A stretch of 64,000 nt of DNA from Asterias amurensis (Eukaryota; Echinodermata; Asteroidea; Forcipulatida; Asteriidae). Under the pieces are notes generated by a model. That model was not told the origin of the DNA. It ran no database searches and saw nothing but the letters and a program-made list of their open reading frames with translations. Of this stretch, positions 18,760-63,350 are shown in pieces. The stretch's first letter is position 1. Every line of letters starts with the position of its first letter. Where the stretch lies: NCBI RefSeq assembly GCF_032118995.1, contig NC_092665.1, forward strand, positions 1,586,001 to 1,650,000. Direction: 5' to 3'. The position numbers and the translations under genes were made by a program.

Positions 18760-21700
18760 ATGGCAGCGGACAAGACGTCGAAAAGTCAGGAGAAACGAAA
18801 GGTAATCCTTTTATTTTTCTTCAACATTTAAACCTAATTATTTCGTGTTGATTTTGGGAGGGGGTCGCTGTTTTAAGTTTTTTAATCGATAAATCTCATC
18901 CCAAATCGTGGACTCGAATTAATCATGGAACAACTTAATTGATAACTGTAAAGTATGAATTTGCAAAATTCAATTTTCTGAAACAGCTGTATGTTATTAC
19001 AAAGACAGGTGTCAGTCGCGTGCTTAAATTACGAGTCTTGTAGTACGAGAAGCATAAAACGATTTAACAGCCTCAGTCCCTAAATGACTTCACTCACTTT
19101 AGTTATGTGACAAGGACCTGTCATGAGAAAAGTCAGAAATTCCATGAGAATAGACCTATTTTAATTGGCCCCCAAGGCCAACCCTAGACAGGGGAAAGGT
19201 GGCGGCATTCTACGGTCCGACCCATAACACTTCCTCAGTTTGGATAAATTTCTAGACAAGCTGGGACCACTAATTTCTTTTGAGTCACTGGGCAACGTTA
19301 TACCCGTAAAACCGTCTCTGCTTTTGTAGACATTATCTTGTGGAGATTTTAGGAATATTTAATCTTAAATTGGAGAAATAAATTAACTGAAACTGTTAGC
19401 TAACCTGATTAATAGACCACTAAAACAGGACCACCCTAAAAATGTAAACATGTATCACCATTCTGCCAAAACATGATAATCATCGGTGTTGAATATTGCA
19501 TATTTAATATTATATAGTGACTGACTCGTGTTACCTTTTGTCTTAATATATTTTCCTTTTTATTATTTGTGTTTCAAGATTCCATTAACACTATTTTGAT
19601 TAATTAATCAGTTAATTAATGAATAATTTTTGCACTTCGACGAGCTCAATTCTTAATTTATAGTTGTTTACTTTCTCATTAAAGATAATAATTCACAGAA
19701 TCCTTACTACAGGGATATACTAACTTAATTAAGGTCTGGGCCTGGGCCCAATTTCATAGAGCTGCTAAGCACAAATATTTGCTTAGCATGAAATTTCTTC
19801 CTTGATAAAAACATGATTACCAACCAAATTTCCGTATGTTGCATATTACTTGTTACTGGTATTCAGCTGATGTTTGCTCATCCCGAAAATCATGTGGAAA
19901 TATACGGTTGGTAATCCTGTTTTTATCAAGGAAGAAATTTCATGCTGAGCAACTGTTTGTGTTTAGCAGCTCTATGAAATAGGGCCCTGGTCATGGCTTT
20001 GGGGTCCTTCAAAAGTTTCACATCCATAGACTTCCGGATTTTTCAATGGCAAAATGAAAATGGCCTTGCGCTCTGATTGGGTACTTATAGAAAATATTAA
20101 TGAAAGAAAAAGGGGGAAAGGGCTTTCATTGTGTGTGCTTTCAGATGTCTGATAGGCTTCTCCTCATGTCTGAAGTCTTTCTCAGTTTCAAATATTATTT
20201 TGTGAGAAATTACCTCTTTCTAAAAAACTACGTTACTTCAGAGGGAGTCGTTTCTCACAATGCTTTATACTGCCAACATCTATTCGTTGCTCGTTACCAA
20301 GGAGGCTTTTATTCTATTATTTTGAGTAATGACCAGGTTCTTTAAATGTGTTTATCTCTACTCCTTATGTTGATTAGTCTTCCAAGCCGTTGATGGAGAA
20401 AAGGAGACGGGCCCGCATCAACGAGTGTCTATCTAAGCTTCAATCTATTCTAGAGGTAGTCAATGGTCATTCAGAGGTAATTGCGTTTAAATTATTCATA
20501 TACCATAATTCAACAAATAGCTGTTATTAAGGTAGCGGCCAGGCCCCTATGCTTCGTTTTTGAAAGGGCAGGGGCACTAAGGGACTTTTTCATTGTGGCA
20601 CCATGACGAAATTGTGGGCAGAGGATTTCAAGGGCACCAAGGATGACCAGAGGGAACGGAGGTTATTGCCTCCAGGCTTGAGTATCATATACCAGGGCCA
20701 AATTTCATTGAGCCGCTTCGGCACAGAAAGTAAGCTAAGCATAACAAAAGTGTGCTAACCGCAACTGGAAAACCAGCCTACACTTTCTGACTGGTATCAT
20801 GCTTATTTCTGCTTAGCAGCAAAATAAACCACACAAATTTTCTGATTAAGCACAACAGGTAGCTATTACAACAACATTGAGGCCTCGGATACGGAGGTAG
20901 TATTTGCAAACAAAACGGGGCAAACGACAACTTGCTAAGCAACAAGTGAGTGGGATATAACCCTAACATGTTTGCTGGTTAGCCGTAGCTATTACTGCTA
21001 CGACAAGTAGTCCGCCACTTTACACGTTAACCTTTACACGACATTTGTTGATTTTATACAGTATCTATTTCGGGTCATTACAAAAAGTATACACTCCTTT
21101 AAAGTGGATTCCATGTAGTTTATTCACCTTTGTGACTTGTTGATTTTAGGTCTCACCTTATGAGGTCATTATACATGCCTCTCAAAAAGATCACACTGTT
21201 GGTAAAGTCAAGGCCCGGTGCTTATAAAACCGATAACCTCACACGCAATAACGAAACATGAGTTTTTGAAGGCTGAGCAAAGATTCGATTTGGTGGTTCA
21301 AGGTTTTGGGATTTGTTTCAATTCTCCAGACAGGTACCACAAATTGATTACAATTTTCAGTACATGAATATGGCATAAATATTATGTAGGGCCTAATGAC
21401 GGTGCATATATATATAAACACGAACAAAGGAAACAAATGGTTGAACAAAGATTCGATTTGGTGGTTCAAGATTGGGATTTGTTTTTCAATTCTACAGATA
21501 TGGGTAGTAAATAAATTGATTACAATATACAGTACATATAGTAACAATATTTTTGAAGGCCTCTCAAAAAAAAAAAAATTCTCGCTGTTGGTAAAGTAAA
21601 TACAACCGACAACCTCTCAGTCTCACGCTATGAAACATGAATTCATGAAGGTTTAACAAAGATTTGATTTGGTGGTTTTGGTGCCCGATACGCTTCGTTT

Positions 21701-22203
21701 TAAAAGGGCAAGGGCACCAAGGCATGTTCCCCTTGTGAAGGGCATTACTACTGTATCATTTCAAGGGCACCAAGGCAATGACCAGGGGGCATGGAGGCGA
21801 TCGTCTTCATTGCCTCCGTAATGTATCAGTCCAGGCGGTTCATAATTACCGAACACAGTTTCAGAGATTAGCATATTTATCTTTACTCGAAGCCTATTGG
21901 TTCATAGTGCTCTACCCTCATGTTTTATTCAACAGACGCCCGGTGGTCATTCAAAAAGAGAGAAGGCTGAGATCCTTGAGCAGACTGTTCAGCTGGTAAA
22001 ACACCTCCGACAGCAAGAACAAGGAGGTACAATTACATGTGTTTTTTTTGTGTGTTTTTTTTGACAGTCTGTCGCTTTGATTTTCCCCTTAAAGTGGGCC
22101 TTTGGGAATGTCTAACTTGATGTTTGTGTCACCTTAGTATACGGTATACGTTTGGTAATGATTCAGCTTTGGATGTATTGCAATTATGCCGACCCCCCCC
22201 CCC

Positions 22204-22239: not shown

Positions 22240-24693
22240 CATATCACGAGCGTTCCCCCCCCCCCTCACCCCAATAGCCTATGTCGCCGTCTGGCTCAAG
22301 TGTTTTTGCCCCTTAACCTTTTCAGTGACTAAAGCCAGCAGGACCAGTCAGTTCTGACTGAAGGGGTTTTTTGGCCAGCGGACCACAAGGGGAACCGTTG
22401 CAATAGAAGTGTCCTCTAAATAGTAAATGAAATTCCAGGCCTGCGTTTATTATTGAAAAATCACACAAAACTAATATAAAGAACTACAGTTATATATTGC
22501 CCCTGTCAAAGTTTGCTAAATCTAAATCACGTACCCTCTCAAAATGACCAACACGCTCCAAACGACACGTGGGATTTAAACGGGTATTAATTTATCATGG
22601 ATTGATCGAGGGACCAGAGATTTGTTTGCCAATCTTTCTTGATTACAAACCTTAATCCACGATTAGTAGATAACGGAATGTTCTACACACTTGAGGAATT
22701 GAGGATAGGCACTAACCTAGACTTGATTCAAGTCCCATTCTCGTGTGAGAGGTCCCTAAGCTATTACCTCAACCATGCCTCAACTTACTATATAACAACA
22801 CGTAGCATACACAGTACAGTGCGCACTCGCCGTCAAAATGTGGTCCAGGTTTTTTTCTGGGGATGGCACGGGATTGGGACTTGAGTCAAGTCTAGCACTA
22901 ACCCTCTGCACGAGTCCAGACAACAAAATCAGAGTCGTTGTGTGACTTCAGTTGGAATATCGTCGGCTCCTCAGTGCTTAAAAGGCACTTTACACGTTGT
23001 CAAAGACCAGTATTCTCACTTGGTGTATCCCAACATGCATAAAATACCCAAAAATAACAATAAATTTGGACTCAATTGGTGATTGAGAAAATGAAAGAAA
23101 AAACACCCTTGATGCATAATGTGTGTTCTTTCAGATGCTTGAAAAAGGCTTCTGACCCAAAGTGTTTTATTATTTGGGTTGAGAAATTTATACATGTACC
23201 TCTTTCTCAAAAACTAGTATACGTTACTGCAGAGGGAGCCGTTTCTCACAATGTTTTATACTATCAACAGCTCTCCATAGCTCGTTACCAAATATGAAGC
23301 TTTTTTGGTAAAAAGTGTTTTGAGTATTACCAAATAGTGTCCAAGGTCTTTTGTCTGGGGGAAAGCGTCCCCTGATGTACCGGTGTTCAGCAATACTTAT
23401 TAAATACATTATAATGGTCGCAAGCAGAACTCACATGTCCAACGAAAGAAAATGTGTGAGGTGTTAAAGGTGTCACCATGGAGAAAGAAATAGATGGTGT
23501 CACCATGTTCACTCTCAATACGTTTTTTGTATTATTTTAATTTTGACACAGGGCAGACACGTGAGGTCCTCCCAATTGCACAATACAGGGCTGGATTCAA
23601 CGAGTGCCTGAATGAAGTCAGCCGATTTATGGACGTCAACGAGCGCGCCCTCAACGCCGAAACACGAGCAGGACTTCTCAACCACCTTGCCTCATCGATG
23701 CAGACGCCGGCCTCCGCGCCGCCGGCCTCGCCGAGTAACGGTGTCGGCACGGGGAGCAGTGGGTGGAACACCGGACAGTTTGTGCAGCAGAGTCCGAGGA
23801 AAGCGACACTACCAGAGGAACGGGTGGATGGTCGGGGCGTGGGGCGCCGTGGAAGCACGGTTGTCCAGCCGGTGAATCCCATGCCGCCACCTGACGCTGT
23901 GACCCCCTCACACGCTGGTGCAGCGTCAGCTTCAAACTATCCTACACGAATCTCTTCATCAAACAACCCAACATTACCACCGACGCAGCAGCACCCTCTC
24001 AGGATGGTCCAGCCGCAGAAATCACCCGTTATTATCCCTGCCTCACAGGGGGTGGCACTACCGATAAATCTACAGTCGCCACCAGCGGGTCATGTGGCTG
24101 TGGTCCTACCGGCACACTTACTGGGTTCATTCGTCGGTGGGCAGGTTGCCACTGGTCAACTTATTCCCTTATATCAGCAACAGGGTAGCGCCCCCGTCGC
24201 CAGTCAACGGGCACCGAGCTCAGAGTTGGTGACCATTCCGCCAGGGTCTAGTGCAATGTTCGTCCCTACACCTGGGAACAATCGCGATGTGAATCACGTC
24301 GATCCCACCGTCGGCTCTTCTTCAAACAGCAGGGGAGGTCGTGTGTTCGTAGCACCCAGCCCAGTTCCCGGATGTTCTCCCAACATGGGGTCAACCAGTG
24401 TAAGAATTGAGTCCTCTGCCCTGGCTAACCCAGAAAGACGGGTACCAGTAGCTACGAACCCACCAATCACGCCGTCGGGTGTGGAAACAATGGCCGCCAA
24501 AGGCACCCCTGAGCACGGCATCATCTACGCACCAGCATCACTACCTATGCAGTTCTACGTTGCGCCCTCTGCGTACGGTGCGGTAAGTGGCCCATTCCCG
24601 AATGGGCTCGCCTTAGCGAATCCGCCATCTTTGGCTTTGGATGCCATTGGAGGTCATTGGAGGCCATGGGGCTTAGAGCAGAATCAAAGATAA
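18760..24693 (+). CDS. HES4-like: Hairy/HES1/4-class bHLH-Orange transcriptional repressor
   Basis: Exons 18760-18801, 20378-20476, 21936-22026 and 23552-24693 have consistent phases and encode 457 aa. The basic region contains the family proline (KPLMEKRRRARINECL), and helix 2 is KREKAEILEQTVQLVKHL. The Orange domain follows at about residues 88-128 (QYRAGFNECLNEVSRFM, then LLNHLASSM). A long Pro/Ser/Gly-rich tail leads to WRPW at 447-450, the Groucho/TLE-recruiting motif. Family knowledge says such proteins bind N/E boxes as dimers and repress proneural genes downstream of Notch. The ATG chosen gives a 14-aa first exon. Seven residues follow WRPW, where HES1 has two. An alternative in-frame donor at 20455/20456 would drop seven loop residues. 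Assignment to the HES family is firm; the HES1/4 subclass is an inference from the Orange domain. Confidence 0.93.
19744..19988. mobile_element. Family B palindromic MITE, best copy
   Basis: The ends GGGCCCAATTTCATAGAGC and AGCTCTATGAAATAGGGCCC are inverted repeats. Subterminal GCTAAGCACAAA and TTGATAAAAACATGATTACC also pair with the other half. The length is about 245 bp with no coding capacity. It is a non-autonomous foldback-like element. Confidence 0.85.
20112..20347 (-). mobile_element. Family A MITE, partial and inverted
   Basis: Landmarks include TTGTGTGTGCTTTCAGATG, CTACGTTACTTCAGAGGGAG, GTTTCTCACAATGC and TTGAGTAATGACC, in the reverse order of the family. One terminus is missing. 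Confidence 0.7.
20535..20690 (-). repeat. GGTGCCC-family repeat in HES4-like intron 2
   Basis: GAAAGGGCAGGGGCACTAAGG and CAAGGGCACCAAGGATGACC (shared phrases trimmed at the ends) are the inverse of the tandem unit at 8866-9262. A second copy lies at 21685-21830. Confidence 0.55.
20695..20960. mobile_element. Family B MITE, diverged
   Basis: It starts GGGCCAAATTTCATTGAGCC and has AAGCTAAGCATAAC and TTTCTGCTTAGCAGC in inverted relation. It lies in intron 2 of the HES4-like gene. Confidence 0.55.
21176..21830. repeat. Tandem duplication cluster in HES4-like intron 2
   Basis: AAAGATTCGATTTGGTGGTTC followed by TGGGATTTGTTT and AAATTGATTACAAT (trimmed phrases) appears at about 21270 and 21442. 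A third start is seen near 21660. CTCTCAAAAA with TGTTGGTAAAGT also occurs twice. Units are roughly 170-210 bp. A GGTGCCC-family repeat closes the cluster at 21685-21830, about 105 bp before exon 3. Confidence 0.7.
22027..23551. other. HES4-like intron 3
   Basis: It holds a C run followed by about 33 As near 22193-22237, another C run near 22255, and a family A MITE at 22978-23352. The acceptor is TTTTGACACAG before exon 4. Confidence 0.6.
22978..23352 (-). mobile_element. Family A MITE, near full length, inverted
   Basis: It begins TTAAAAGGCACTTTACACG and ends AATAGTGTCCAAGGTCTTTT. The interior (CTTGGTGTATCCCAACATGC, GTTACTGCAGAGGGAGCC) runs in the reverse sense. The ends are diverged. Confidence 0.8.
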
Positions 24694-34956: not shown

Positions 34957-36971
34957 CTACCAGGGCCGCCACACATTCTCCTGTGGTACTACGTGATGGC
35001 TGACGGCTTTGTGACGTCTGACTGATGTAGCCATGGCTGACTTGACTTTAGGTTTGTACTGATGAGGAGATGGGAGCCGGGTGTATTGCTTCTGTTCGAC
35101 GGGTGACGGTGGGGGCGTTGGGAAGATGATGGAAGACTGGGTGCTGGACTGGCTAAGAAGGGATGGATTGCTATGGGCAACAAAGTCAGATGGGATGCAC
35201 AGCATCAGCTGGTTCTGTTGCTGTGCTGGCATGTAAGTGCTGCAGGTTGTTGACTTGGGAACAGGGCTGGAAGCAGGTGATGTGGTTGCAGCTGTGGTTT
35301 GTTTGACAGCATTTTGGCGATAACTGTAGCCACCCTGAGCTGCTGCTGGGCTGGGCTCGTTCAGGCTGCTGCAACGGTCAGCTAAGTGGTTCATGATTCT
35401 CAATCGGGTCTCCAAGTCGATGGATTCACAGTTGGAGAGAAAGCTGGAAGCCTCGCCAAGGCACTCGCTGTATCCAGCGTGGTATTGGCTGATCTGTGCG
35501 GATGGGGAGGTACGCCCGTCTGTGGATGTCGACTGGACCTCTTTAAGATAACGCACTGTCATCTCGAGTATATCTGCCTTTTCCATTTTGGGTTGGCGGG
35601 AAATCTGTGATAAGACAAAGAAACAAAATGAGAGAAATTAAGTACAAGCTCAAAATTTTTATTCAAGGTAAATAAACACGCTTATAACAAACCGGGGCAT
35701 TTTTAAACAGGCTTAAGATATCAAGGCCCAAGAGATGATCCAGGCAAGGTTGATTACAAAAGGCTTCCAAAACTTTCCCACGATCGTCTGTCATTATATC
35801 CTCCTGGACCCCATTGTACTGCACCCAGAAGTCGTTAGCACGTCGACTCGCTAACAATAAAGCTGCGGTGCTGTTTCACTGCCCGCATTCAGCACGAGCG
35901 AACAACAGATCAGTCGCGCGCCCTTCACACAAGCCCCCTTTGACAATCGCAGGAGCTCATGCGGTTTGGTTATGTCCATAAGCCTATTAACACAGCTTGG
36001 TGTTCCATTCAGGGGGACCGTGGGAATGCATTGGGATCCTGGAGTGATGAAGCCCAACTGAACAATGGGGGGAATACCTCAAAATAATGGGTTCGTTACC
36101 AACTAGGGCGGGTGAACCAGCACACTTCTATGTTGACAGGTTTTTTTTCTTTCTGGTGCGTCAGAGATGAATATGAATAACTTGTTTATGTGACCTTGCT
36201 TTTAGGTTGATTGATTGTGCATAGGGCACAAACAAACCCACGAAATTAAGACAAATTTAAGGTACCATGAGAGGCACACGAAATGCCTAGAGAATAGCAG
36301 TAAAACCTGATTGCAGTTCTAAATACAACACTATAAAAACACTTTCGTTTCCTTTCTATTCTGAAAATAGGGAAAACAATAAGAAGGAATACCGTTTCTG
36401 AATTGCATGTTGGAGGGTATCAATTTATGGTAATGTTTCAAGTGATACAAAAATGCTGTACATACCTCTTTGCGTATGGCAGGGAAGACTAGACTCTTGA
36501 GCTGCAACAAGCTGTCATTGATACGAGCCCTTCGTTTGCGCTCCATCATGTGTTTTGACGTCTGTTGGAAGAAAAAAATAACAATCATTAATTGTGTGAT
36601 TTGTAATACAGTCTATGTACAGTCAATCAAAATAAAAGCAACGATCGAAATGATTTGAATTTCAAATGGTTTAAAAAATTGTTTTCAGCAGAATTATTAA
36701 AACTTTAACAGTACAGCATGTTCATCATTGAGACAAATTCATTAAGTGTGTAAGACCATTTTAGGGCTTCGAATCCCAAGACATAGAACCACATATCAAT
36801 GGTTTGAATTTGACAGACAAAATATCAAATGTCAAACTTTAAAGACAGATTTACGGTGAAATATTAGTACAAAGTCCTACTGTACTAACAATATTGGAAG
36901 AGTTGAATGTATCAATAACGTACCTTAGGCCTGTCAATGGCGGATTCGTGCATCATAGCGTTGGCATACAT
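34957..36971 (-). CDS. HES2-like: HES2-like bHLH-Orange transcriptional repressor
   Basis: Three exons, 36971-36924, 36561-36466 and 35604-34957, splice in phase 0 and encode 263 aa. The basic region and helix 1 are ERKRRARINDSLLQLKSLV. Helix 2 is KMEKADILEMTVRYLKEVQ. The Orange domain spans about residues 86-126 (ISQYHAGYSECLGEASSFL to MNHLADRC). A Ser/Thr/Pro/Gln-rich region leads to a C-terminal WRPW at 260-263 immediately before the stop, which recruits Groucho/TLE. The basic region has Met where most HES proteins have the conserved Pro (SKHMMERKRR against KPxxEKRRR). The loop FPAIRKEISRQPKMEKAD resembles HES2 or E(spl) proteins more than HES1. Its 3' end faces that of the other HES gene about 10 kb away. 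Several CSL octamers lie in its introns and upstream, as expected for a Notch target. Confidence 0.93.
35775..36026. promoter_or_regulatory. Two RBPJ/Su(H) octamers in HES2-like intron 2
   Basis: TTCCCACG at 35775-35782 and CGTGGGAA at 36019-36026 are strict matches in opposite orientations, about 245 bp apart. Intronic Notch-responsive elements are plausible, but function is inferred only. Confidence 0.3.
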
Positions 36972-37029: not shown

Positions 37030-37037
37030 CGTGGGAA
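37030..37037 (+). promoter_or_regulatory. Promoter-proximal RBPJ/Su(H) octamer of the HES2-like gene
   Basis: CGTGGGAA (followed by AC) lies about 60 bp before the ATG, inside the probable 5' UTR or core promoter. A weaker GGTGGGAAAA lies at about 37475. Confidence 0.5.
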
Positions 37038-37090
37038 ACGTCTCTGAGGATGGTCGGGTTTAGAATGATGTGATCTACAACACGAGAGTC

Positions 37091-43435: not shown

Positions 43436-43467
43436 TAACTTTCTACAGTGCAGGTACTATAGATAGT

Positions 43468-43597
43468 ACAGGGTGGATTTCACAAAGAGTTAAGACCAGT
43501 CTTATCTCGAGTTAGGACGAGTTACTCGTCCTAACTTAGGACTAGCCACACGTTTTTTATATCTCCTCCCTAACTCTTTGAGAAATCGACCCCAGGT
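43468..43597. mobile_element. Family C palindromic MITE
   Basis: Ends GATTTCACAAAGAGTTAAG and TAACTCTTTGAGAAATCGAC are inverted repeats. The interior has GTCCTAACTTAGGAC. It lies right after the minisatellite. Confidence 0.8.
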
Positions 43598-44600
43598 GGA
43601 TTAAACATTTTATAGTATACACTTTAGGTTAGATCTGCTGTATATGCCACAGCCGCCTTTATTTTTATTGTGTTTTGTTTAAAAATTTATCATTACCCCC
43701 TTTTTAATATTTTTTTTTTAAAATTATTATTTATTAATATTAGTGAGCCCGAAGTGAATAGCCACACGACTTGGTAGCATATGGTTAATACATACGCATG
43801 ATGGTTAATGGGTTCTTATTCTATACGACAATGCTAACGGAAGGGGACACTCCTATATCTTGAAAGGGTTTCGGCGCGTGGACGCAGCCGAACCATTTTG
43901 CAGTACCGGAGGAAATTGAATGATTGAGGGCACCCCCATCAGCTAGCCACGCGAGTGGCCGTTTGCAGTGCCATGTGGGTCTCAAAATAACAGCAGGGTT
44001 TTTCTTATAGTGGCACGCTCCACGTATGCTGAGGTCACGCGACCAAGTTTGCCCCCGGTCGCCTTGGTTTTTTTTTTTCGTGACCAGAAAGAATCAACAA
44101 TGACTGTATGGGATCAAATTTCACCGCAAGTTAATAAGCTGGAAGTGATGTGTGGTGCCGTATGGCTATTTCAGCCGACCAAATTGGGGGGGGGGGGGAG
44201 TGGTCGCCCGCTTTCCATTGTTGAAATCATTTATGTACATCTTTCTTACAGCGCGTTAAAAGACACCAACTTAATTGAGATTTCTTATGCGAAAGAATAT
44301 TGTGCGGAGGAAACAAGGAACACGCAGCAGGTGTCATTGAAGCAAGAAACATAGGTACTCAACCATAATTGCTTCTCTAAACCCAGGTGTATAATGGAAA
44401 CCTGCGAGGGCTGAGATATAGTTGTAAGTGGTGTTTGAAGCTTTGTTTATGATAATAGTGAACTTAATTGCGGGTACAGGGTAATAATTCTCTTTTGAGC
44501 GGGTCTTTGCTCTGAAAAGAGCCGGTTGGTGTCGATGAATTTCGTAAAGTATAGTCTGCTCGTCTTCAGGAGAAAGATGTGTTGGTAACCCCTTAGTACT
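43598..44600. other. Spacer with no recognised gene
   Basis: It contains an AT-rich tract near 43.68-43.74 kb and a G run near 44187. A stop-free frame across the G run has no recognisable similarity and no ATG start. Confidence 0.4.
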
Positions 44601-51654: not shown

Positions 51655-51902
51655 TTATCCTGAATACAGTGCAATCTTCTTCGTGATGGCTTTCCGACAG
51701 ATAGGGCAATGCTTGAGGGGTTTGGAACATTTCTTACACGTGCTGTGTCCGCAGAGAAACGCTGTGTCCTTCTTCTTCTCCATGCAGATGTTGCACAGCT
51801 GGGCTTCCTCAAGCTCCTGCATCTTCTGCCTCAGCTCCTGGATCTCCTTGCTGGAGGAAGGAAGCGATGACGAGGAGGGTATCGCTGAATCAGATGAAGC
51901 AC
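51655..51902 (-). CDS. MIB2: MIB2 terminal exon: coiled coil and RING 3
   Basis: A Ser-rich start is followed by a short coiled coil ([16 protein letters not shown]). The C3HC4 RING follows: [20 protein letters not shown]. The protein ends KKIALYSG. The final RING in mind bomb proteins carries the ligase activity. Cys and His ligands are all present. The layout, coiled coil directly before the last RING, is also seen in MIB1. Confidence 0.93.
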
Positions 51903-54900
51903 CTGAGATGGACAGATGAATAGATGGTGTTCATAGATAATAATAGTAACAATAATATAGCTCGCAGTTCACAATAACCCGAATCAATACACTGTACATT
52001 AGTGCCCTGGGGTCAATTTCACAAAGAGTTAGGATTAGACACAACTTAGGACTAAGCCTAGGAAAAACTTAAAGAAACATGTTGCCTTGGATTGGACGAG
52101 TTGGTCTATAAAAAGCGTTTGTAACCGTTTTTTTTTTTAAATGCATATGGTTGGAAAGATGTTTTAAAAGTAGAGTACAATGATCCACATCCATTTGCCT
52201 CAAAATTGCGTGGTTTTCCTTTTACCATGCGAACTCAAAATTTGACTCCCATAAATGGCCGACCGTGTTAGTCGACGAGTTAAAATGAAAGCCACGCAAT
52301 TTCGATATGTTCGTGTGGATCATTGTATTGTACTTTTACAACATCTTTCTACCCGTATGCTTTTAATAACAAACGGTTACAAACGCTTTTTAAAGACCAA
52401 CTCAACAGATCCAAGGCAATGTGTTCCTTTAAGGCAAGCCTTAACTCTTTGTGACATCCACCCCTGGTCATTGCGTCAACAACATTCCATTTATCATTCT
52501 CAGCTCCCTGGGTAGTATACAACCTGGGCAATTGTAGCTTTTTCATACACAACATCGCCCTCTACCCTCGCAGGAACCCCATTTATACCCCTGGGTCAAG
52601 AGAAACAAGTGGCGTAAAGTATCTTGCTCAAGGACACAAGTGTCACGACCGGGATTCGGACCCACACACAAGGTCGTGGGTACTGAGAATACAGTGCTAT
52701 CACACGTGCAAGGGTTACACCAAAATGAATATTGAACATGAATATATCATATGGGGGATAACCCTCATGCAAATTTAACATCTACCAAAACAAACACTTG
52801 TCAATATGTCAATGGGCTGTATTCATAAAAAATAGCAATTGCTTTTTCTAGGCTTTTGCTTACATCTTTATACATACATCTGTATAAAGATGTAAGCAAA
52901 AGCCTAGAAAAACGAATACGGCCCATTAGAAATGCACACAAATTAAGACACATCACAACACCTTTGCGTTTGGTCTTCAGAGGCGGGGTTCCCTTCTGAG
53001 TACCGGCGGGCGCCACAGCGGCAGTCACCCCTCTTGGAGTGACTTGATGTCCGTCTTTATCGGCGGGCAACGGCGGGCATGGCGTGAGAGCATGCAGAGT
53101 GTGATGGGTGAAGATGATCAAGGGTGCAATGGGTGGATGATCGGGCATAATCAGAGGAAAACGGGAAAAACAGAAGGGAAGAAACACTGGGATTGGATTA
53201 GGATTATCTGGAAATTTTTTGTAATTAGCATATTTCATGGGAAGAGTCCATTTGCTTAGGTCAATGGTGAATTGGAAATGGGTGGAAACACACATTCAAC
53301 AACAGCCAAACAGTGATTAAACACAGCAAAACACACACAGGAAAAGGGTGAATTTTTTGAGTAGTTTGAGTACGTTTGTCAAACAAATTGAAAATGCAAA
53401 AATGTTGATTCATTTGCTCACCTTTTCCTAGCTTTTCTTCAATGGTTCGGCAGCAAACAGTACATTCTTTAATGTTCACTGAGCACTCTGACAAAAGCAC
53501 AAATAAGAGAATGAAATTAATGTAGAAAAAAACATTGCAGGGAAGAGTCAGGCTCTTGCCAAACAACAGCTGAATACCAGTAACAAGCAATATGCAACAA
53601 ATGAAAATTTGGTTGGTAATCCTGTTTTTATCAAGGAAGAAATTTCATGCTAAGCAAATTTTTGTACTTAGCAGCTCTATGAAACTGGGCCCAAGTCTCT
53701 GTACTTAAATAAAAGACCATTCCATGTACCTGTTACATTGGCAAGTTCTAGGGTCTGGTGCCCAATTCATCAAGTGCACTGGACTCAAGTTTGAAAGGTT
53801 AAGTCATCAGGGACCCAACTCATGGCTCTGTTTACCATAAGCAAAAATAGGCCATCTTGTTTTATCGCCCGTTCATATCTATGTAACCAAGGCTGGAAGA
53901 AAACAAAGTCTGGTTCCTTTTTGCACATAGCATCCATTACCGTTATTGGATACGGGGAACACGACCATGATAGTCAGGACATGATAAAGGTCCATGGTAG
54001 TGAGTGCAAGGCGCCTTGGTTCTTGGTTCAGAAGCCCCTATTAGCTTAGACTGGGCCCCTGTCTTTATCGCAAGGATAAAGACAGGTCCCTGCCACTAGA
54101 TCCAGTGATTCCCATTGGATACAATGCACGTACAGTGACATAGATGCCCAAATAGCCACTGCTCTCAAGTCCGCAATGGAATTTGACTGCGTATCTATAT
54201 GTAAAACAACAGAGGTCAGAGGTCAAACTACACGCCGGTTTTGCAATTTTTTGAGCCCGGTCTCTGGCGTTTTTCACGAGCCTCGAAGAATGACGTCAGA
54301 CGTTCAGGCTACTATTAGCTTTACCTGTGCAGACAACCTTGTGTCCACAAGGCCGAAAGGTGATATCTGCACTTCTAGAGTTACACTTGGAACACTTTGT
54401 GACCCCGTCTACTCTCTCAGCCTCTGTCACGGATACCTGTGTTAATAAACAGTTACAAAACAATAATAAGTATTATCTTCAAGTACGCGCTAATCCTCCA
54501 ATCAGATTTGCAGAATGGAGTGGTGATATAAACCTATATTGCACGGCTAATATCACTACCATGCGTCGTGTGTGTTCTATGTCACGCGCCAAGTTTGCTT
54601 GAGGATAAATACGTTATCACTAGCGCTCGTAGAAATACGGAAAAATATAGCGCGTCCCGTCCCATATCAAACTCGGCCTCAATGGATATGGGATGCAGAA
54701 GCGCTACATTTTTCCATATTCAACTCGCGCTTGTGTGATAACTTATAATAAATAAACCTGAAAATTTATCACAAATACAAAACGTAACTCGTGCAAATTG
54801 AAATCCCAACACCAAATTAATGCTTAAACATGTTATACATCATAACCAATGGGATGACATACACTAACTTCTACAACTGCATACATAATTGTTTGTGTTA

Positions 54901-57900
54901 CATTATGTTACTTTAAATTATAAGTAAATTAACACTTAAATGCACAACCACGGGGAAAAATTAATCATTATAAACTGTCCAGGACAGATCATTACAGTGA
55001 CTGGACCTTTTCAAACATTGGTTTGAATTCTCTAGAACAAACTACCCAAATTCCATCTCGAACATTGTTTCTATGGAAACTTTCAAAAACAGACCGAAAA
55101 CACTGCTCTTTACACAAGCATTGTGTTTAGTTTTCTAAGCAATGACTTTTTCACCAGATAATCATGAGTATATAGAATTAGCTGTTACAAACAACTTGCC
55201 AACAAAATGGACCGATGTTTAATCATTGCATACCTGTTTTCATCTTTTGCCGAAGCGCCATTTAGTAAGGTATATTTGATTGTGCGCTTTTTAAAAACAT
55301 ATTACGTTTATTCTTCTTCTGATTATTTTTTTATAATAAACCTCCTCCTTACATGTAACCGAGTAGCCTTTATGTCTTTATTACACATCCAAAAGCAATA
55401 TGAGCGCCAATGACATTATGAATAGGAAACAAGAAGACATGTTTAATTTTGGACTTGGAAGGAAAACCACAATGGAGGAAAACCCATGCAATCAGGTAGG
55501 GACTGAAAACCCAATCCACATGCAAGGTGGGATTCGAACCAGATAAACGTGCCGACTCTCTACCAACTGATGTATCTAACCCTATGTTGGCGGTCTCAAT
55601 ATCTTTGTTTGGGGGATCACGTCAGAATTCAACACTGAAGTTATAAAATCAAAGCTTCCATGCAACACCAACTTAATCAATATCCCAATGATTGTCTTAC
55701 CTCAAGATCAACCTTAGAATTCAAGAAGCGAAAAATAGAAAAGATCATATGATACAAATTGTAACATTATAAATATTTTTGGGGTTGAACAAAGAATTGG
55801 TTGAATGGAATGGGATTTTGTACAGGAGCGGGCATGGTATAAAACCAAAATTAAATAATAGATGGAAATTTGCATCGGGATAAAGAATATAAATTTTGGT
55901 TTTACCCTTTACACCAGTATGTGTAATAGCACCATGTACTCAGTACTTTCCTGAGCTCTTTGAAAACAAATCACAGGCATGTTACTTGGGTGGGATTCAG
56001 ACCCACAACCTTAGCGATTCTGAAACTGAAATAAGCGCTTTCTGAACTGTCTAAACAAACACACCTTGCATATGGAGCATTTCTGAAACAGCTTAGCACA
56101 GTCCGTACAGACAACCTGGTGCCCACAGGGTTTGAAGCGACAGTTGGCTGGCATCTGACACAACTGACACTGCGTCATAATGGCACGGAGGTTGCCACCG
56201 TCAGTCTGGGCGCTAGACTTGGGGTCTGGTACCTTGCTGGCTGCATTGTCCCCAGATGAAGAAGTGACAGGAGCGATGGGCGCCTGGCTACGCTGGGATT
56301 TTTGTTTAGTGGAAGGTTGAGAGTTGCGTTCTTTTGACGACTCCCGTAGCCTTTGTCTGTTTGAGACAAACAATTGAAAAATGTTATTTTATAGCCAACA
56401 ATCCTTTGCAAAAGTGAAGCCACAAGTGTAAGACTATTGAGAGCTTAGTCGTGTTGCGACTACTGTTTTTCAACTACTCAGTTAATCGTGCTGCCACGAC
56501 TACTACAAAAATAATAATACACCTTCCTGCTTGGTGAACCAATTGTGTCGCTCACTAAAATTCACAAAAAACACAATTTACTTTTGACACACAATCAGAC
56601 ATCAGTGACACAAACCTTAAACCGTTTCATCGTAAAGTTTACCATACTAGCGCCTGCAGCAAACAATATGCAGCAATGCGTCTTGGGAATTAAAAATTAG
56701 TTGCCACCAGTGTTGAAGACACAACTATTTGAGGATGCACCAAGACAAGAAGTAAATTTCACTAGTTTATTTCTTTTTACTCACTCTCTGAGATCTGCAC
56801 ACTGCTGTAGGAGGCTGTCCATTTTCAGAGCTGCGGCAAGAAACAAAGGCGTCTTGCCCTGAGTATTCCTCTGATTCAGGTTAGCGCCCTCTATTGTTAG
56901 GTAACAGGCAACTGCTATCCCTGTGCCAATGTTGTTGTTGCTTGGCGGTAAGGAAGAACGGATCTGGGGGGAAAAAAATTATTGCAAGTTAACGACCACT
57001 TTAAAAAAAAATTAACACCTATTCTAAATAGTGTTTGTAGACAAGATTTGCTAACAATAAACATGTCCTCAGAACAAACATAATTACAACAAAACAATTT
57101 GTAAAATAAAAGTCCTGTGTGATGTGTACTGACCGTACAAGAACCCAAACGAGTCATTCTCAATTTTAGTACATTGCCACTTCGGGTAATTATAGGACGG
57201 GATGCTCGGCTGAAATTTTGAGCAGGCTCAAACTTTTGGAGCACCTTCCTGATCAAACAAGTCCAAGCCCATCCATGAAGCTCCCAAACAGACTATTAAA
57301 AGGTGCCACTACTGCCGTATTGTTTGCATAAAGTTTTAGCCAGTTCAGCTACAGTTTTCAAAACGTATCGAGAACGAGTTCAGTGTGATGGGGGGTATAC
57401 CTTGGACAGAATTGGAGTACTGTCGGCGGTTGCATAGACACTCTGCCTCATCAAGGCAAGATGTAGACACGTATCTCCGTCCTCATCGACTGCGTTGACG
57501 CCCGCTCCCCTTGAGACGAGCAGCTCAATGACGTTGGTGTGACCCTGACCCACCGAGAGGAGTAAGGGCGTCTGCTTCCGGCTATTCCGAATGTCAATAT
57601 CCGCCAGACCCTTATAGGTTTAAATAACAAAAAAAAAATCAGTTTAATGGTTAAGATATCTGTTTTAGTATACAGGAGTCATGGGTTCGAATCCCACCCA
57701 ACTGCAGAAAATGTCAATGTCTGCCTGACCCTATTAGATTTAAACACAAAACAAATATTAGTTTAACGGTTAAGATATCTGCTTTAGAATACAGGAGTCA
57801 TGGGTTCGAATCCCACCCAAGTAATATACCTGTGAAATTTTTCCAAAGGTATAAAATTGTGGCAATTGTCAATGCCTGACCCTACAAGGTTTAAACACAA

Positions 57901-60900
57901 CACAAATATTGGTTTAATGATTAAGATATCTGCTTTAGAAAACAGGAGTCATGGGTTCGAATCCCACCCAGTTGCGGAAAATGTCAATGTCTGCCTGATT
58001 TAAATACAAAGACAAATAAAAGTCTGAAGACAGAAGGCATGAGTAGTGTGCCTGTGGAATAGTTGTCGTGAGTTTATCCCGAACCTTTGTAATAAGGACT
58101 TCCGCTACATCCCTGTGGCCGTTCAGCGCGGAGAGATGGAGAGCCGAGAAGCCATCATCCTTCTTCACGTTGACCAGCTGTCTAGCTCGCGTGACTAGCT
58201 TCTCAGTTGCACTGGAAATTCAAGTAAAAGAACAAAAAAATAATAGGTTGTGGTTCTAATCCCACCCAAGTAACTCGGCTGTGGATTTTTTATCACAGAC
58301 GTTAGGAAAGTACTGAGGATGCAGTACTTCAACACATCGGTGTAAGGGTCAAACAAATTATTTTTTTTATCCCTGATGAAAAACTAGAATCTATAAAAAC
58401 GGTGCAGTACCTGCTGGTTACACATAGGATTCGAACTGCCTCTAGTCCACAGGGCTAGCTCGGTGGTTCAGTGGTAAGACACCTATCTGCTCTGGCAATG
58501 CCAAGGTTTTGGTTTCGAATCCCACCGGGGTGATTTTTTTAATTTTTTTTATGCAAGTCGCTAGACACACAAGGCCTAAAGGCCACTTCAAGGTGTGGGC
58601 TACAATTGTTTGTCCAGAGGCTGTTGCCACCTACTCCTAGGGCTGAAACAGGGTTACCCCTTTTTACAGTCCATATGGATGTAGGCTTGGGTAACATCAG
58701 TCCGAAGCCTGGCCGGTAGAGCAGAAAGCGCTACCTCCCCAATTTTATGTAGCAAGTGTCACGACCGGGACTCGAACCCACACTCTGCTGATCAAACACC
58801 AGAGTTGAATTCAGTGATCTTTACCGCTGACATACCCCTGTTTGACATACCCCTGTTTATCAGCCATACTTTTAGAACATTCCCTGGGTAGCATACAACC
58901 CCAAGCTTTATTTATTAACCCAACAAAATACTGTCTCAGCCCTCTCAGGTTCCCATTTATACACCCGGGTGAAGAGAAGCAACTATCGTTAAGCGCCTAC
59001 AACACACAGAGGTACTTACTAGTGGTTTCCTTTTAAGGCAGCGTGGTGTAGTACATTGAATCCACGTTGATTCTTTAGCGTGAAAAGTGCTCCGCTTGCC
59101 TCTACTAGCATATCTATTATATCTTTACAATTCTTGGCTATTGCATCGTGTAGGGCAGTGTCACCGTACGAATCCTTTGGTTCGAAGAAAAATACCAGAG
59201 CAGAAAATGGTTAGTGGACTGACGTCTTGACCCTTAAAGGCAGTGGACACTATTGGTAATTAGTCAAAATAATTATTAGCATAAAACCTTTCTTGGTGAC
59301 GGGAAGAGGTTGACAGAAACACAAGAGCTTAAGCCTGGTGCTCTTATCCGCTCGGCTTGACATGCCACATGAATAAACAGAAAAAGCTCCCCCCCCCCCA
59401 AGGTACCAAGACGAGCTTTCTCATACCTGTAGGTTAGTGTTGCATTTGTGCCTGAGTAGCACTCGTACACAGGCAGTGAAGCTCTTGTTGACTGCTACAT
59501 GGAGACTGCTGCACTGGCCGTTGTTGACGGCGTCGATCTTGGCTTTCTTCTTCAAGAGGTATTCGGCTACATCCGGCTGATTTCTAAAGGGTAATGTAAA
59601 GGATAAACATGTACATCTTATCATGATCAGTTGGCTCTCCACTATAGATTCAGGTGCCCGCTGCCGTTTCCCAAGAAAGCAGCCACGTGTATAGCCCGAC
59701 TTCTGACGTCACACTTCGAGGCTCATGAACTATGACAGACATCTGCAGTTGAGCCTTCATCAATCACTGCCAATACTTAACTTTCACCTACATTCACTTC
59801 ACATGGAGAATCTAGTCAAATCCAGTGCCAGCCGTACCTGGACAATTTCCATGCCCCAACTGTGGACGGCTGTGCCGCTCTCGAATTGGACTATATAGTC
59901 ACATGCGAACACACTGAATGCACAAAGACGTCATCGTCGAATACGACGGACAACCTACTACTATATAACACTACATGCAATTACATGTACTGTGCATTAT
60001 ACACAGTGCACATCACAGTCTACCACGTGTACAACCTTGACAAGGAAACTTGAAATAAAATAATGAAAAGCGTACCCGAAGACAGCGTAATGCAGAGCAG
60101 TATCCCCTTCCTGATCGTGTATCTCCAGACTGGCCTTGCTCATCAGCAATACCTTGATGACTTCTAGATGACCTTGGTGGCTCGCAACCTGCAACGCAGT
60201 CTTCCCAGAGTTCATAGTGTTCACCTACATGTTAAGTGGGAGAGTAGTATTGGGGTCATTCTTAAGTACTGGGTCCAATTTCATAAAGGGTGTAAGCACA
60301 AAAACTTGCTAAGCACAGGAAAGTATTGCTTAAAGGCAGTGGACACTATTGGTAATTGCCAAAGACTAGCCTTCACAGTTGGTGTATTTCAACATATGCA
60401 TAAAATAACAAACATGTGAAAACTTGAGCTCAATTGGTCGTCGGAGTTGCGAGATAATAATGAAAGAAAGAAACACCCTTGCCGCGGGAAGTTGTGTGCT
60501 TTCAGATGATTGATTTTGAGACCTCAATTCTAAATCTGAGTACTCGAAATCAAATTCATGGAAATTGACTTCTTTCTCAAAAACTATGTTACTTCAGAGG
60601 GAGCCGTTTCTCACAATGTTTTATACCATCAACAGCTCTCCATTACTCGTCACCAAGATAGGTTTCATACTAATAATTACTTTGAGTAACTACCAATAGT
60701 GTCCACTGCCTTTAAGTGGGAGAGTCGTATTGGAGTAATTCTTAACTACTGGGTCCAATTTCATAAAACCTGTAAGCACAGAAACTTGCTAAGCACAGAA
60801 GACACAGGTTACCAGCCGAAACTACTGGCAACTGCACCTATATTACTATAAGCAAAGTATCAAGGTTTACAGAAGCAGGGAATTTCGCGCTCACATTAAG

Positions 60901-63350
60901 TGTATTTCAAACGTTAGCAGGGAATTTTAGCTTGTGCGCATGGGTACTAATACTAGGCATTCTTCGCTTACACGGCTAGCGCAGAAATTAGGCGCTTTCT
61001 TCTCAGTATAAGCAGAAAATGGTGATCTGAAGAAGTTCTACAATTTCTCCCTTTCAACTTGCGCTTGCATGATAACTAATATCATCATTACTACTATTAT
61101 TATCAATTGAATTTCTGCTATTCGTACCCAGTCAGGATGCTTGACTAGTAGTTCAGCAACTGCACCTTTATTGCCTTGTGCCGCTTCACTGACTAACTTG
61201 GCAGGGGCGTCGCTGTTTGGCGGATGAGAGATGATTTGGTCCAGTAACAATCGAAGATGACCTACAAGAATGAATCACCAATACAAAAAACAACAATATC
61301 AAGTCTTTGTTTGTTTGTTTATTTGTTTGTTTGTTTGTTTAGATGATCTTCCCATCAAGAGAACCAGCAAAACAACACAACAAAACAATATTAAGTCTTC
61401 GTTTGTTTGTTTCTATTGTTTTTTTTTGTTTTTTTTTTGATGATCTTGCCATCAAGGAACTCTGCAAACTCCCACAAGGGGATAAGGTGATCCCTGGCTA
61501 CACAGCAGTCGACGGTTGTATGTCAACGATTGTTCTGTCATCGAGGGCTAGATAGGTCTATGGTTTAAGGCCTACTCTAGTCAACTGTTTTTTGTTCAAC
61601 CCAAACCATTTAAAATTTACCCAAGCATTTTTCTCTTGTGGCTTATAACATTTGAAAGAAATACAATAAAATAAATTTGAGATTTTTGAAATGTTCAAAA
61701 TAAGTTAAGACACTACCTGACTGCTCCTCATCTCTTTCCGAGACAAGGGTGTTGTTCAGATCGGGAGCGTGAGGCCCAACTTGGGTGACGCAGGAGGGAT
61801 TAAAGGTCCAGGCTTGATCCTCAATCGAGATTCTCAGATCCCCATCTGGGTAAACTTTGAGAATCTTTCCTGTTTTGCCTAAAGTCTGCAAAGAAGTACA
61901 AATAGATAAAAAAAATACATATCATTTCAACAATCATTATACAAATGCCTATTGGACTCAATAATAGTGCTGGGCGAATAGTGAAATTTTGTTATTCGGA
62001 TACCGCTGGCCAACTATCCGAAATTAACCGGATATTCGAATAGTTTTTTCGCCGCTAGAGGGCGCTGTTCGTTTGTGAATGAGATCTTTTGGGCGGATTG
62101 ATATTAGTTTTAGACAGTGTCACTCGGTTCATTCATAAAAATGACCGGATCTAATTTAAAGATGGCGATTTGCTTTTTCTTTTGATCGTGATTGACTCTA
62201 CGTGAAGGAAAACTTTTGTAATCTTTGAACAAATTACGTCAGAAATGTCATTGTTTTAACTCTTCACGGAGGTGAGCATAGTTAAATACTTAATATATGC
62301 TGTTTTATGCTGTCTTAATAGAAGTTTCATAAGGATTCAGACAAAACATTCATATCAGTTGTCGCCCGACGTCCGCGGATATTAAAGAATATCCGGTTAC
62401 TCGGTTGTAATTACAGAATTATCCGGTTTGTAAATAGGTATTCGCGCCCTATGCGGATATCCGGTTAAGAAAAAAAAAGGCATTTGCGGTTACGGATAGG
62501 AAAACCTATTCGCCATTAACCGGATATTCAAATAATTCGCCCAGGCCTACTCAATAACAACACCAATAACAACAAATTCTTATATAGCGCATTTCACAAT
62601 AACAGTATCAATGCTCTTGACATCAGTGCCCTAGTCATGGGGCCAATAACATCCCTGTAATGTTTCTCAGCTCCCTTGGGAGTATACAGCCCTGAGCTGC
62701 CTGTAAGGCGCTTGTGGCTTTTTCATACACAATATCAACCTCTACCCTCGCAGGTACCCATTTATACCCCCTGGGTGAAGAGAAGCAATTATAGTGAAGT
62801 ATCTTTCTCAAGGACACAAGTGTCACGACTGCACTGCAGTGCTGCTTATCCCGTCAGTCATTACGGCCAGGTATCCCCTCCATTTAAAGGCACTGGACAT
62901 TATTGTAAATACTCAAAATAGGTTTTAGCATAAAACTTACTCGGTAGTGAACAATGGAGAGCTGTTTAAAGTATAAAACAACTGCTCCCTCTGAAGTAAC
63001 GTACTTTTTTGAGAGAAAGAGGTAATTTCTCACTCATACAATAAAAGAAAGCTCACATAAACTTGTGCAACAAGGGTGTTTTTTTCTTGCATTTTTCTCG
63101 CGCAACTTCGGTGACCAATTGAGTAAAAATGTTCACAGGTTTGTTTTTTGATGCATTAGTTGGGATACACCAAGTGACAATACTGGTCGGAGACAATGAC
63201 CAAAGGTATACCCTTTTTTTAAAGGAAGTGTTTTACTCTACTTACTACTTGCATATTGTCGCTCCATTCTCCGTGGCCGGCTTGTAGTTTCTTTACTTTG
63301 GTGATGTCAGAGCTAACTCGCACCTTGTCACCCTGAGCAAACACATCCAC
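51655..63350 (-). CDS. MIB2: MIB2, E3 ubiquitin ligase mind bomb 2 (3' 14 exons; N-terminus off-window)
   Basis: Exons, in coding order, are 63350-63246, 61885-61717, 61261-61128, 60224-60076, 59583-59427, 59174-59020, 58211-58085, 57610-57401, 56963-56785, 56356-56065, 54436-54325, 53487-53422, 53054-52962 and 51902-51655. All junctions are GT-AG and phases agree, giving 731 aa to the stop. Order of parts: MIB repeat, ankyrin repeats, then three RING fingers. The ankyrin part tracks human MIB2 closely ([54 protein letters not shown]). Mind bomb proteins ubiquitinate Delta/Serrate at the plasma membrane and trigger the ligand endocytosis needed for Notch activation. The missing N-terminus should carry the MIB/HERC2 and ZZ domains, about 280-300 aa by family length. 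The donor after exon 58211-58085 (GTTCGG) is weak. The linker exon 53054-52962 is the least certain. Confidence 0.93.
52013..52472. mobile_element. Family C MITE halves flanking a family E MITE
   Basis: Left: GGTCAATTTCACAAAGAGTT to CTAAGCCTAGGAAAAACT. Right: GCCTTAACTCTTTGTGAC to CCACCCC. The break is at the TTAA bounding the family E insertion. Confidence 0.75.
52069..52432. mobile_element. Family E palindromic MITE with TTAA duplication
   Basis: TTAAAGAAACATGTTGCC and GGCAATGTGTTCCTTTAA are the inverted ends, with TTAA on both sides. Subterminal TTGGATTGGACGAGTTGGTC and GACCAACTCAACAGATCC also pair. It is the same family as the copy at 48282. Confidence 0.88.
52675..52800 (+). mobile_element. 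tRNA-derived SINE piece (family F)
   Basis: ACTGAGAATACAGTGCTATC, GTGCAAGGGTTACACC and ATGCAAATTTAACATCTACC follow the order of the family body. The tRNA-like head is not distinguishable from the adjoining family G element. Confidence 0.55.
52809..52928. mobile_element. Small MITE with a perfect 30-bp hairpin
   Basis: Arms 52843-52872 and 52883-52912 are perfect reverse complements around a 10-nt loop. Outer AATGGGCTGTATTC pairs with GAATACGGCCCATT with one mismatch. It lies about 35 bp from the MIB2 linker exon, within the intron. Confidence 0.85.
53422..54436 (-). CDS. MIB2: MIB2 exons encoding RING 2
   Basis: Exon 54436-54325 carries CSKC and [10 protein letters not shown]. Exon 53487-53422 supplies [13 protein letters not shown], so the C3HC4 finger is split by an intron after the fifth ligand. 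Phases (1 to 1) agree across the junction. The intron holds half of a family B MITE at 53575-53695. Confidence 0.9.
53575..53695. mobile_element. Family B MITE, half copy
   Basis: TTGGTTGGTAATCCTGTTTT, ATCAAGGAAGAAATTTCATG and GCAGCTCTATGAAACTGGGC (trimmed) match the right half of the 19.74-kb copy. It lies in a MIB2 intron. Confidence 0.75.
53696..54324. other. MIB2 intron, no other feature
   Basis: The only structure noted is an 11-bp perfect stem, CTGTCTTTATC, around 54059-54085. No additional exon is seen. Confidence 0.4.
54595..54745. repeat. Imperfect palindrome, possible MITE
   Basis: ATCACTAGCGCTCG, GAAAAATATAGCGC and CCCATATC on the left are mirrored by GATATGGGATG, GCGCTACATTTTTCC and CGCGCTTGTGTGATAAC. 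A related half sequence lies near 61015-61080. Confidence 0.55.
54746..56064. other. MIB2 intron between RING 1 and RING 2 exons
   Basis: It is AT-rich. A family F SINE in reverse orientation occupies 55870-56020 (CACAGGCATGTTACTTGGGT as shared phrase), and a GGTGGGATTCGAACC tRNA-like patch lies near 55525. No additional exon is recognised. Confidence 0.5.
56065..56963 (-). CDS. MIB2: MIB2 exons: last ankyrin segment, linker and RING 1
   Basis: Exon 56963-56785 ([20 protein letters not shown]) matches the final ankyrin region of MIB2. Exon 56356-56065 begins with a Ser/Gln/Lys-rich linker and ends in RING 1: [22 protein letters not shown]. All C3HC4 ligands are present. The 58-codon linker is low complexity, as expected for this position. 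Confidence 0.92.
57401..61261 (-). CDS. MIB2: MIB2 exons encoding the ankyrin-repeat domain
   Basis: Seven consecutive exons (61261-61128 through 57610-57401) encode a run of ankyrin repeats with the GxTALHxA helix signature. Examples are [80 protein letters not shown] and GDTCLHLAL. The domain is expected to bind partners such as ligand tails. The protein breaks at exon borders follow the human MIB2 sequence as I recall it. Confidence 0.92.
57590..58010 (-). repeat. Tandem duplication of an exon's splice acceptor plus SINE head
   Basis: The end of exon 57610-57401 with its acceptor (plus strand ATGTCAATATCCGCCAGACC then CTTATAGG) recurs as ATGTCAATGTCTGCCTGACC at about 57712 and 57982, and in shortened form at about 57868. 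Between the copies lies a tRNA-like segment (GTTTAACGGTTAAGATATC, GGTTCGAATCCCACCC) at about 57641, 57761 and 57911. The period is about 120 then 150 bp. Confidence 0.8.
58245..58400 (+). mobile_element. tRNA-derived SINE (family F)
   Basis: GGTTCTAATCCCACCCAAGT (B box), CTGTGGATTTTTTATCACAG, GAAAGTACTGAGGATGCAGT and ATCCCTGATGAAAA follow the family order. It lies in a MIB2 intron. Confidence 0.7.
58450..58560 (+). mobile_element. tRNA-derived SINE head
   Basis: An A-box-like TAGCTCGGTGGTTCAGTGGT and a B-box-like GGTTTCGAATCCC lie about 45 bp apart, followed by a T-rich tract. The spacing suits Pol III promoters. It does not fold convincingly as a functional tRNA. Confidence 0.55.
58735..59012 (-). 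mobile_element. tRNA-derived SINE (family G)
   Basis: GTGTCACGACCGGGACTCGA and ACCCACACTCTGCTGATCAA (tRNA-like end) are followed by TTCCCTGGGTAGCATACAAC and CCATTTATACACCCGGGTG. It abuts the acceptor side of the exon at 59174-59020. Confidence 0.65.
59234..59313 (+). mobile_element. Family A MITE fragment
   Basis: TTAAAGGCAGTGGACACTAT through AGCATAAAACCTTTCTTGG, then truncated. It lies about 60 bp upstream of a MIB2 exon acceptor in the coding sense. Confidence 0.8.
60234..60805. repeat. About 95-bp direct repeats flanking a family A MITE
   Basis: GTGGGAGAGTAGTATTGGGG to CTTGCTAAGCACAGGAAAG at 60234-60323 is repeated at 60716-60805 (GTGGGAGAGTCGTATTGGAG onward) with about a dozen differences. 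The repeat includes a family B terminus (GGTCCAATTTCATAAA). The MITE lies exactly between the two copies. Confidence 0.8.
60330..60715 (-). mobile_element. Family A MITE, full length with TTAA duplication, inverted
   Basis: TTAAAGGCAGTGGACACTAT to GTGTCCACTGCCTTTAA. It is flanked by the direct repeats described at 60234-60805, in a MIB2 intron. Confidence 0.92.
61290..61450 (+). repeat. TTTG microsatellite and duplicated flank
   Basis: A GTTT repeat at 61307-61340 and a T-rich repeat near 61400-61438 each precede GATGATCTT(C/G)CCATCAAG. Thus a segment of about 100 bp with the CAACAATA(T)TAAGTCTT phrase is present twice. Confidence 0.65.
61717..63350 (-). CDS. MIB2: MIB2 exons encoding the MIB repeat
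   Basis: Exon 63350-63246 encodes [20 protein letters not shown] and GEWSDNM. Exon 61885-61717 continues [20 protein letters not shown] and WTFNPSCV. Together they form one MIB repeat as found between the MIB/HERC2 and ankyrin parts of MIB proteins. The 1.36-kb intron between them holds a hAT-like element, a SINE and a MITE. Confidence 0.92.
61964..62548. mobile_element. hAT-like non-autonomous DNA transposon
   Basis: The ends AGTGCTGGGCGAAT and ATTCGCCCAGGCCT are imperfect inverted repeats of the hAT type. The octamer ACTCAATA occurs directly at both flanks (61956-61963 and 62549-62556) and fits an 8-bp target duplication. The interior is rich in CCGGATATTCG-like phrases and lacks a transposase. 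Confidence 0.75.
62560..62850 (-). mobile_element. tRNA-derived SINE (family G), best body
   Basis: ATAGCGCATTTCACAATAAC, TCTACCCTCGCAGGTACCC, TTTATACCCCCTGGGTG and AAGGACACAAGTGTCACGAC mark the body on the complementary strand. The tRNA-like end is eroded after CACGACTGCACTGC. Confidence 0.7.
62884..63222 (+). mobile_element. Family A MITE, diverged
   Basis: TTAAAGGCACTGGACATTAT, ACAATGGAGAGCTGTT, CTGCTCCCTCTGAAGTAACG and GATACACCAAGTGACAATAC are family landmarks. It ends within 25 bp of a MIB2 donor site. Confidence 0.8.

Follow-up and report, generated by a model that had tools for sequence, protein, structure and literature searches.

Are two bHLH-Orange genes and a mind-bomb gene that lie side by side in Asterias amurensis a remnant of the gene neighborhood found on human chromosome band 1p36, and if so, what has held them together? 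The window analyzed here is the whole stretch of 64,000 nucleotides at C18:1586001-1650000, taken from a genome of 491.5 Mb in 23 contigs of which C18 makes up 17.1 Mb, or 3.48%. Positions given below without a contig name are window positions.

Genes of the window and its flank

The Notch-type trio reported by an initial annotation is real, as gene models and Pfam domains place two bHLH-Orange genes and a mind-bomb gene where they had been annotated. The first bHLH-Orange gene, HES-A (18760-24693, plus strand; 457 amino acids), has four coding exons (18760-18801, 20378-20476, 21936-22026 and 23552-24693) with intron phases 0-0-1, and its HLH (1.9e-12) and Hairy_orange (5.6e-13) domains both score above the Pfam cut-off. 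Its WRPW motif is not terminal, being followed by seven more residues, and its loop is two residues longer than in all other rows of a 16-row alignment. The second gene, HES-B (34957-36971, minus strand; 263 amino acids), has three coding exons (36971-36924, 36561-36466 and 35604-34957), carries the same two domains above cut-off (HLH, 1.5e-12; Hairy_orange, 1e-11) and ends in WRPW. A proline in the basic region is a feature of HES proteins. It is present in HES-A and replaced by histidine in HES-B (36561-36466), at a site where the other HES-type rows covering it in the same alignment have proline; judged from the protein sequence, this substitution may alter the DNA preference of HES-B. The two genes are convergently oriented and 10.3 kb apart.

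Between HES-B and the mind-bomb gene lies an AT-rich tandem array of about 53 copies of a 53-bp unit (40629-43433, no strand), to which we assign no role in the block; GC content is 0.28 over the stretch holding it (40001-44000). Plus-strand ORFs at 37074, 39031 and 43947 matched no Pfam family over the cut-off and are taken as non-coding, and no tRNA genes were found in the window. Elsewhere, a gene-like string of ORFs occupies 4620-8742 on the plus strand, in which the ORF at 7467-7916 matches DUF7869 (2.2e-8) and two others match no Pfam family. A dispersed repeat of about 390 bp occurs at 16011-16405 and at about 16 other places, MIB2 introns among them, and gives 20 BLAST pieces in the window (the seed itself included; the others at 71-96% identity).

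The mind-bomb gene is represented in the window by its 3' part (approximately 51663-63350, minus strand), which encodes the second SH3-like repeat, ankyrin repeats and three RING-type fingers according to Pfam and alignment. Its 5' exons, with MIB_HERC2 and ZZ domains, extend up to C18:1655967, 6 kb outside the window. The initial annotation was right about the identity and place of the gene, of which the window contains only a part. The complete MIB2 architecture (MIB_HERC2-ZZ-MIB_HERC2, SH3-like repeats, ankyrins and RINGs) is present, with MIB_HERC2, ZZ, ankyrin and RING domains called by Pfam and the SH3-like repeats by alignment to MIB2 only. Exon edges are approximate because at five of 14 places automatic splice chaining gave no junction. 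Of the three RING-type fingers, which lie within 51663-56350, the most N-terminal scores below the Pfam cut-off, at 24.6 versus 27 bits. Human MIB2 has two RING fingers, and three RING-type fingers are possibly the ancestral state of this protein.

A first leaning, based on the C-terminus with its three RING fingers and last residues, was that the window gene is MIB1, which peptide scores and a tree ruled out. In comparisons with human MIB1 and MIB2, 14 of 15 exon peptides of the window gene score higher against MIB2 and one against MIB1, and all 12 peptides of a gene at C20:8.67 Mb are closer to MIB1, none to MIB2. A four-row tree with the same human sequences separates the MIB2 (C18) and MIB1 (C20) groups at 100/100. 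By these sequence comparisons, the window gene is MIB2 and MIB1 is the gene on C20. The N-terminal part of the window gene is also similar to a solved structure of MIB1; this match shows the family rather than MIB2 itself. Further MIB-like genes or fragments, with MIB_HERC2 and at some places also ZZ and ankyrin pieces, occur at C18:3204-3216 kb, C18:10045-10069 kb, C1:35.68-35.73 Mb and C4:25.26 Mb. Most of them are about equidistant from MIB1 and MIB2, and judging from such matches mind-bomb-like genes are expanded in this genome.

In the flank of MIB2 outside the window, C18:1668.4-1683.0 kb contains a series of minus-strand ORFs. Eight of them were tested with Pfam, which detected Kazal, laminin-EGF, EGF and laminin-G (LamG) domains in six; the ORFs with such domains cover 1668.4-1682.2 kb. 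The best solved relative of the LamG ORF at 1673.0 kb is agrin (8s9p, 1.5e-36), and its best non-agrin relative is neurexin (1.4e-17); for the LamG ORF nearest MIB2 (1668.8 kb), neurexin (6.8e-32) is slightly ahead of agrin (5.5e-28). The agrin NtA domain has one strong match in the genome, at C18:1760511-1760837 on the same strand as MIB2 (76.5 bits), and a second, weak match on C5 (29.8 bits) that is also above the cut-off of 25.1. The LamG, Kazal and EGF ORFs together with the NtA match identify the gene as agrin. It probably spans about 1668-1761 kb of C18, at most about 12 kb from the first exon of MIB2, and is transcribed in the same direction; the NtA exon would belong to one gene with the Kazal-to-LamG exons, from which it is separated by about 78 kb. 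HES-A, HES-B, MIB2 and agrin thus lie together within about 156 kb. A methyltransferase-like ORF is located between MIB2 and agrin (C18:1660862, plus strand).

Linkage to human 1p36 on two scales

Linkage was tested with six gene families represented on human 1p36 (SSU72, DVL, P53, NOC2, RER1 and CAMTA/CG-1), whose human positions were looked up after the searches (PMC3893467 Table 1 and text; PMC9318831 Table 1). Every marker tried is reported; some of the families have further human members off 1p36. All six matched solely on C18 in the genome search: SSU72 at 7.78 Mb (6.1 Mb from the window block), dishevelled (DVL) at 2.109-2.145 Mb (0.45 Mb away and less than 0.5 Mb from MIB2), the CG-1 domain of CAMTA at 3.88 Mb, RER1 at 10.65 Mb (9 Mb away), and P53 at 16.55 Mb and a multi-exon NOC2 at 16.73 Mb (both about 15 Mb away), NOC2 having a second, single-match place at 3.39 Mb. 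None of 13 control loci is on C18. Eleven of these are chaperonin loci on ten other contigs, obtained by grouping 58 matches by place; the other two are Brix loci on C13 and C15, few for that family and a thin control. Given the share of C18 in the genome, six of six markers on it has a probability of 1.8e-9, and the Fisher test against the 13 controls gives 3.7e-5.

HEY is on C17 and MIB1 on C20, and two among the 40 HLH matches listed are on C18, both of them HES genes. A genome-wide search for Hairy_orange domains above cut-off found five places, one being Hey on C17 and the other four lying on C18: the two window genes and two canonical HES1/4-type genes at 15.427 and 15.470 Mb, 13.8 Mb from the window genes. 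Four of five places on a contig of 17.1 of 491.5 Mb exceeds chance. With six of six markers and none of the controls on it, C18 therefore corresponds in large part to the 1p36 gene set. This fits the many one-to-one chromosome correspondences among deuterostomes described in PMC11175523. The proposal that the linkage predates the split of echinoderms and chordates is supported in that the markers, and agrin adjoining MIB2, make the linkage look old; membership of these HES genes in the HES4 and HES2 clades is not supported.

At the local scale, human HES4 is at 924 kb, AGRN at 945-981 kb, DVL1 at 1.26 Mb and MIB2 at 1.54 Mb; both AGRN and MIB2 are plus-strand genes (PMC3893467 Table 1). HES4 and AGRN are 20 kb apart and AGRN and MIB2 0.56 Mb; at 0.62 Mb between HES4 and MIB2 and 5.5 Mb between HES4 and HES2, the human genes are not a tight block (PMC3893467 Table 1). 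SSU72 is listed beside MIB2 in human, and miR-200 lies in the human interval (PMC9318831 Table 1). In cattle, a single 23-kb deletion spans ISG15, the 5' region of HES4 and exons 1 and 2 of AGRN (PMC4929742). The literature searched on HES, MIB2 and agrin linkage yielded no mention of an ancestral HES-MIB2-AGRN block.

On C18 much of this order has changed. Rfam gave no match to miR-200 in the window or in six flanking loci, and none was found in the window when two mismatches were allowed or in 50 loci with the exact pattern; these searches covered the agrin interval except for about 73 kb (C18:1686001-1759010). With SSU72 6.1 Mb, NOC2 15 Mb and the canonical HES genes 13.8 Mb away and miR-200 not found, much local order has therefore decayed. 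Close together on C18 are HES-A, HES-B, MIB2 and agrin, with dishevelled in the vicinity. Under random placement on C18, three loci fall within less than 0.51 Mb with p = 0.0027 and two within 0.15 Mb with p = 0.018, the agrin part of this probability being post hoc because agrin was found while reading the flank.

We consider it fairly likely that the window is part of an old neighborhood equivalent to human 1p36.33, partly preserved on a contig that corresponds for the most part to the 1p36 linkage group. The HES genes, MIB2 and agrin would have kept together in a span of about 156 kb, with dishevelled no more than 0.5 Mb from MIB2, as the other 1p36 markers tested dispersed along C18. Such linkage would persist mainly because genes seldom move to another chromosome and their order along it is lost slowly, and not because of a shared pathway.

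The competing account that fares best, one we think rather unlikely, is that the chromosome-level linkage alone is ancient and that intrachromosomal shuffling brought HES-A, HES-B, MIB2 and agrin close by chance in this lineage. SSU72, p53, NOC2 and RER1 are scattered over 15 Mb, as expected from chromosome-wide shuffling, the canonical HES pair is distant, and two loci on C18 are expected within less than 0.15 Mb in 1.8% of placements in a setting where many gene pairs could have been noticed. A chance re-encounter does not readily explain, however, why the human counterparts are also near each other at the distances given above (PMC3893467), why AGRN and MIB2 are on the same strand both in human and on C18, or why DVL, a marker chosen before agrin was seen, is close as well.

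Subfamily of the window HES genes

The canonical genes at 15.427 and 15.470 Mb are 70/62% and 67/65% identical to HES1/HES4 over 112 and 110 columns, and the corresponding values are 45/44% for HES-A and 45/47% for HES-B. HES-B is 39% identical to HES2, which is below its identity to HES1/4 and to the canonical pair; its best value, 48%, is with the canonical C18 pair. Both window genes are divergent by these measures.

Trees did not assign the window genes more closely. A first tree of 16 rows, including the long-branched HES3/5/6/7 and m8, gave no resolution, and these five sequences were dropped to leave 11 rows. In the 11-row tree HES-B joins HES2 at a support of 54/18 only, and HES-A is separate from HES1/HES4; constraining it to group with them costs 3.1 lnL and is not rejected (AU p 0.137). 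Even the canonical 15.43 Mb gene does not form a single clade with HES1/HES4 in the best 11-row tree (AU p 0.056), so the power of the tree is low throughout. The rows, among them vertebrate and fly sequences, are few, and the tree is therefore weak in both directions. The identification of HES-A as HES4 and of HES-B as HES2, and with it the labels "HES4-like" and "HES2-like" of the initial annotation, is unsupported by trees and identities, neither gene having a supported grouping with HES4 or HES2. The exon pattern of HES-A, four exons with phases 0-0-1, is that given for HES1/4 and also for HES2 in PMC3396596, and is hence not diagnostic.

These results bear on a second alternative. The canonical pair at 15.4 Mb would be the genuine HES genes of 1p36 type, and HES-A and HES-B would be fast-evolving copies, specific to this lineage, that arrived beside MIB2 after the echinoderm-chordate split. 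We regard this as unlikely. The higher identity of the canonical pair to HES1/HES4 (62-70%, versus 44-47% for the window pair) speaks in its favor, but HES-A keeps the 4-exon 0-0-1 pattern reported for HES1/4 and HES2 (PMC3396596), and HES-A and HES-B are only 37% alike and therefore unlike recent duplicates of each other.

Regulation, meaning and comparison with known systems

A third possibility is a HES-MIB2-agrin(-DVL) micro-linkage of bilaterian age, in which developmental HES enhancers in or near MIB2 and agrin would trap these genes as bystanders and the human HES4-AGRN pair would be the last vertebrate remnant. We think this improbable.

Shared Notch regulation was the reason first proposed for the genes being held together. 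One copy of the RBPJ-type motif CGTGGGAA was found in the 1 kb preceding each HES gene, at 18449-18456 for HES-A and at 37030-37037 for HES-B (both plus strand), and none in the 1 kb preceding the first-exon ORF of MIB2. Simulated sequences contained at least one copy in 78/500 and 69/500 cases (14-16%), and as a sign of shared Notch control the motifs are at chance level. Agrin, the nearest further neighbor with a 1p36 counterpart, is not known as a core Notch-pathway gene, and MIB1 is unlinked to the block, on C20. Zebrafish mib2 mutants are described as free of Notch phenotypes (PMC4728363), and Mib2-null mice are reported to be viable and grossly normal (PMC2082076); exencephaly of a Mib2-null mouse is listed in PMC3893467 Table 1, where MIB2 is called a ligase for Notch ligands, and MIB2 may therefore still act in Notch signaling. 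A Notch-pathway block maintained through joint cis-regulation or within one chromatin domain is very improbable, as the single upstream motifs and the naming of MIB2 as a Notch-ligand ligase (PMC3893467 Table 1) are all that favor it, against a motif count within the simulated range, MIB2 reported as dispensable in zebrafish and mouse (PMC4728363, PMC2082076), and SSU72, beside MIB2 in human (PMC9318831), lying 6 Mb off here. We have no evidence that Notch signaling holds the HES-MIB2-agrin neighborhood together.

Under the preferred reading of a partly preserved 1p36.33-type neighborhood, the genes would most likely keep the ordinary roles of their families. HES-A and HES-B would be DNA-binding repressors that recruit Groucho/TLE via WRPW, and MIB2 would be a RING ubiquitin ligase; since MIB1 is present elsewhere, it is probably not the chief ligase for Notch ligands. 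If HES, MIB2 and agrin already adjoined in the ancestor of deuterostomes, human HES4 and AGRN would have remained side by side, as a relic, for more than half a billion years. Position could then be used to order fast-evolving HES genes that the trees here do not sort, and the locus would be a concrete case for asking if regulation or slow decay accounts for the persistence of such blocks.

Three known systems may be compared with this locus. C18 resembles the conserved ancestral deuterostome chromosomes presented in PMC11175523 in that the 1p36 markers tested are found together, in shuffled order, on a single invertebrate chromosome; for C18 the comparison covered six markers, which is less than a genome-wide dot plot. 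The vertebrate hes5 clusters and the HES duplications of fly and amphioxus, as covered by PMC8320183 and PMC3396596, are similar in having several HES genes per chromosome, some of them close. HES-A and HES-B, in contrast, are 37% alike and convergent, unlike a recent tandem array. The closest likeness is with human 1p36.33, where the order is HES4-ISG15-AGRN-...-DVL1-...-SSU72-MIB2 (PMC3893467, PMC9318831). The C18 locus differs from it in having two divergent HES genes in place of HES4, located 3' of MIB2 and not beside the agrin 5' end, in the distant positions of SSU72 and the NOC2L counterpart, and in the absence of miR-200 from the sequence read. Common to both are HES, AGRN, DVL and MIB2 genes that all lie close, with AGRN upstream of MIB2 on the same strand.
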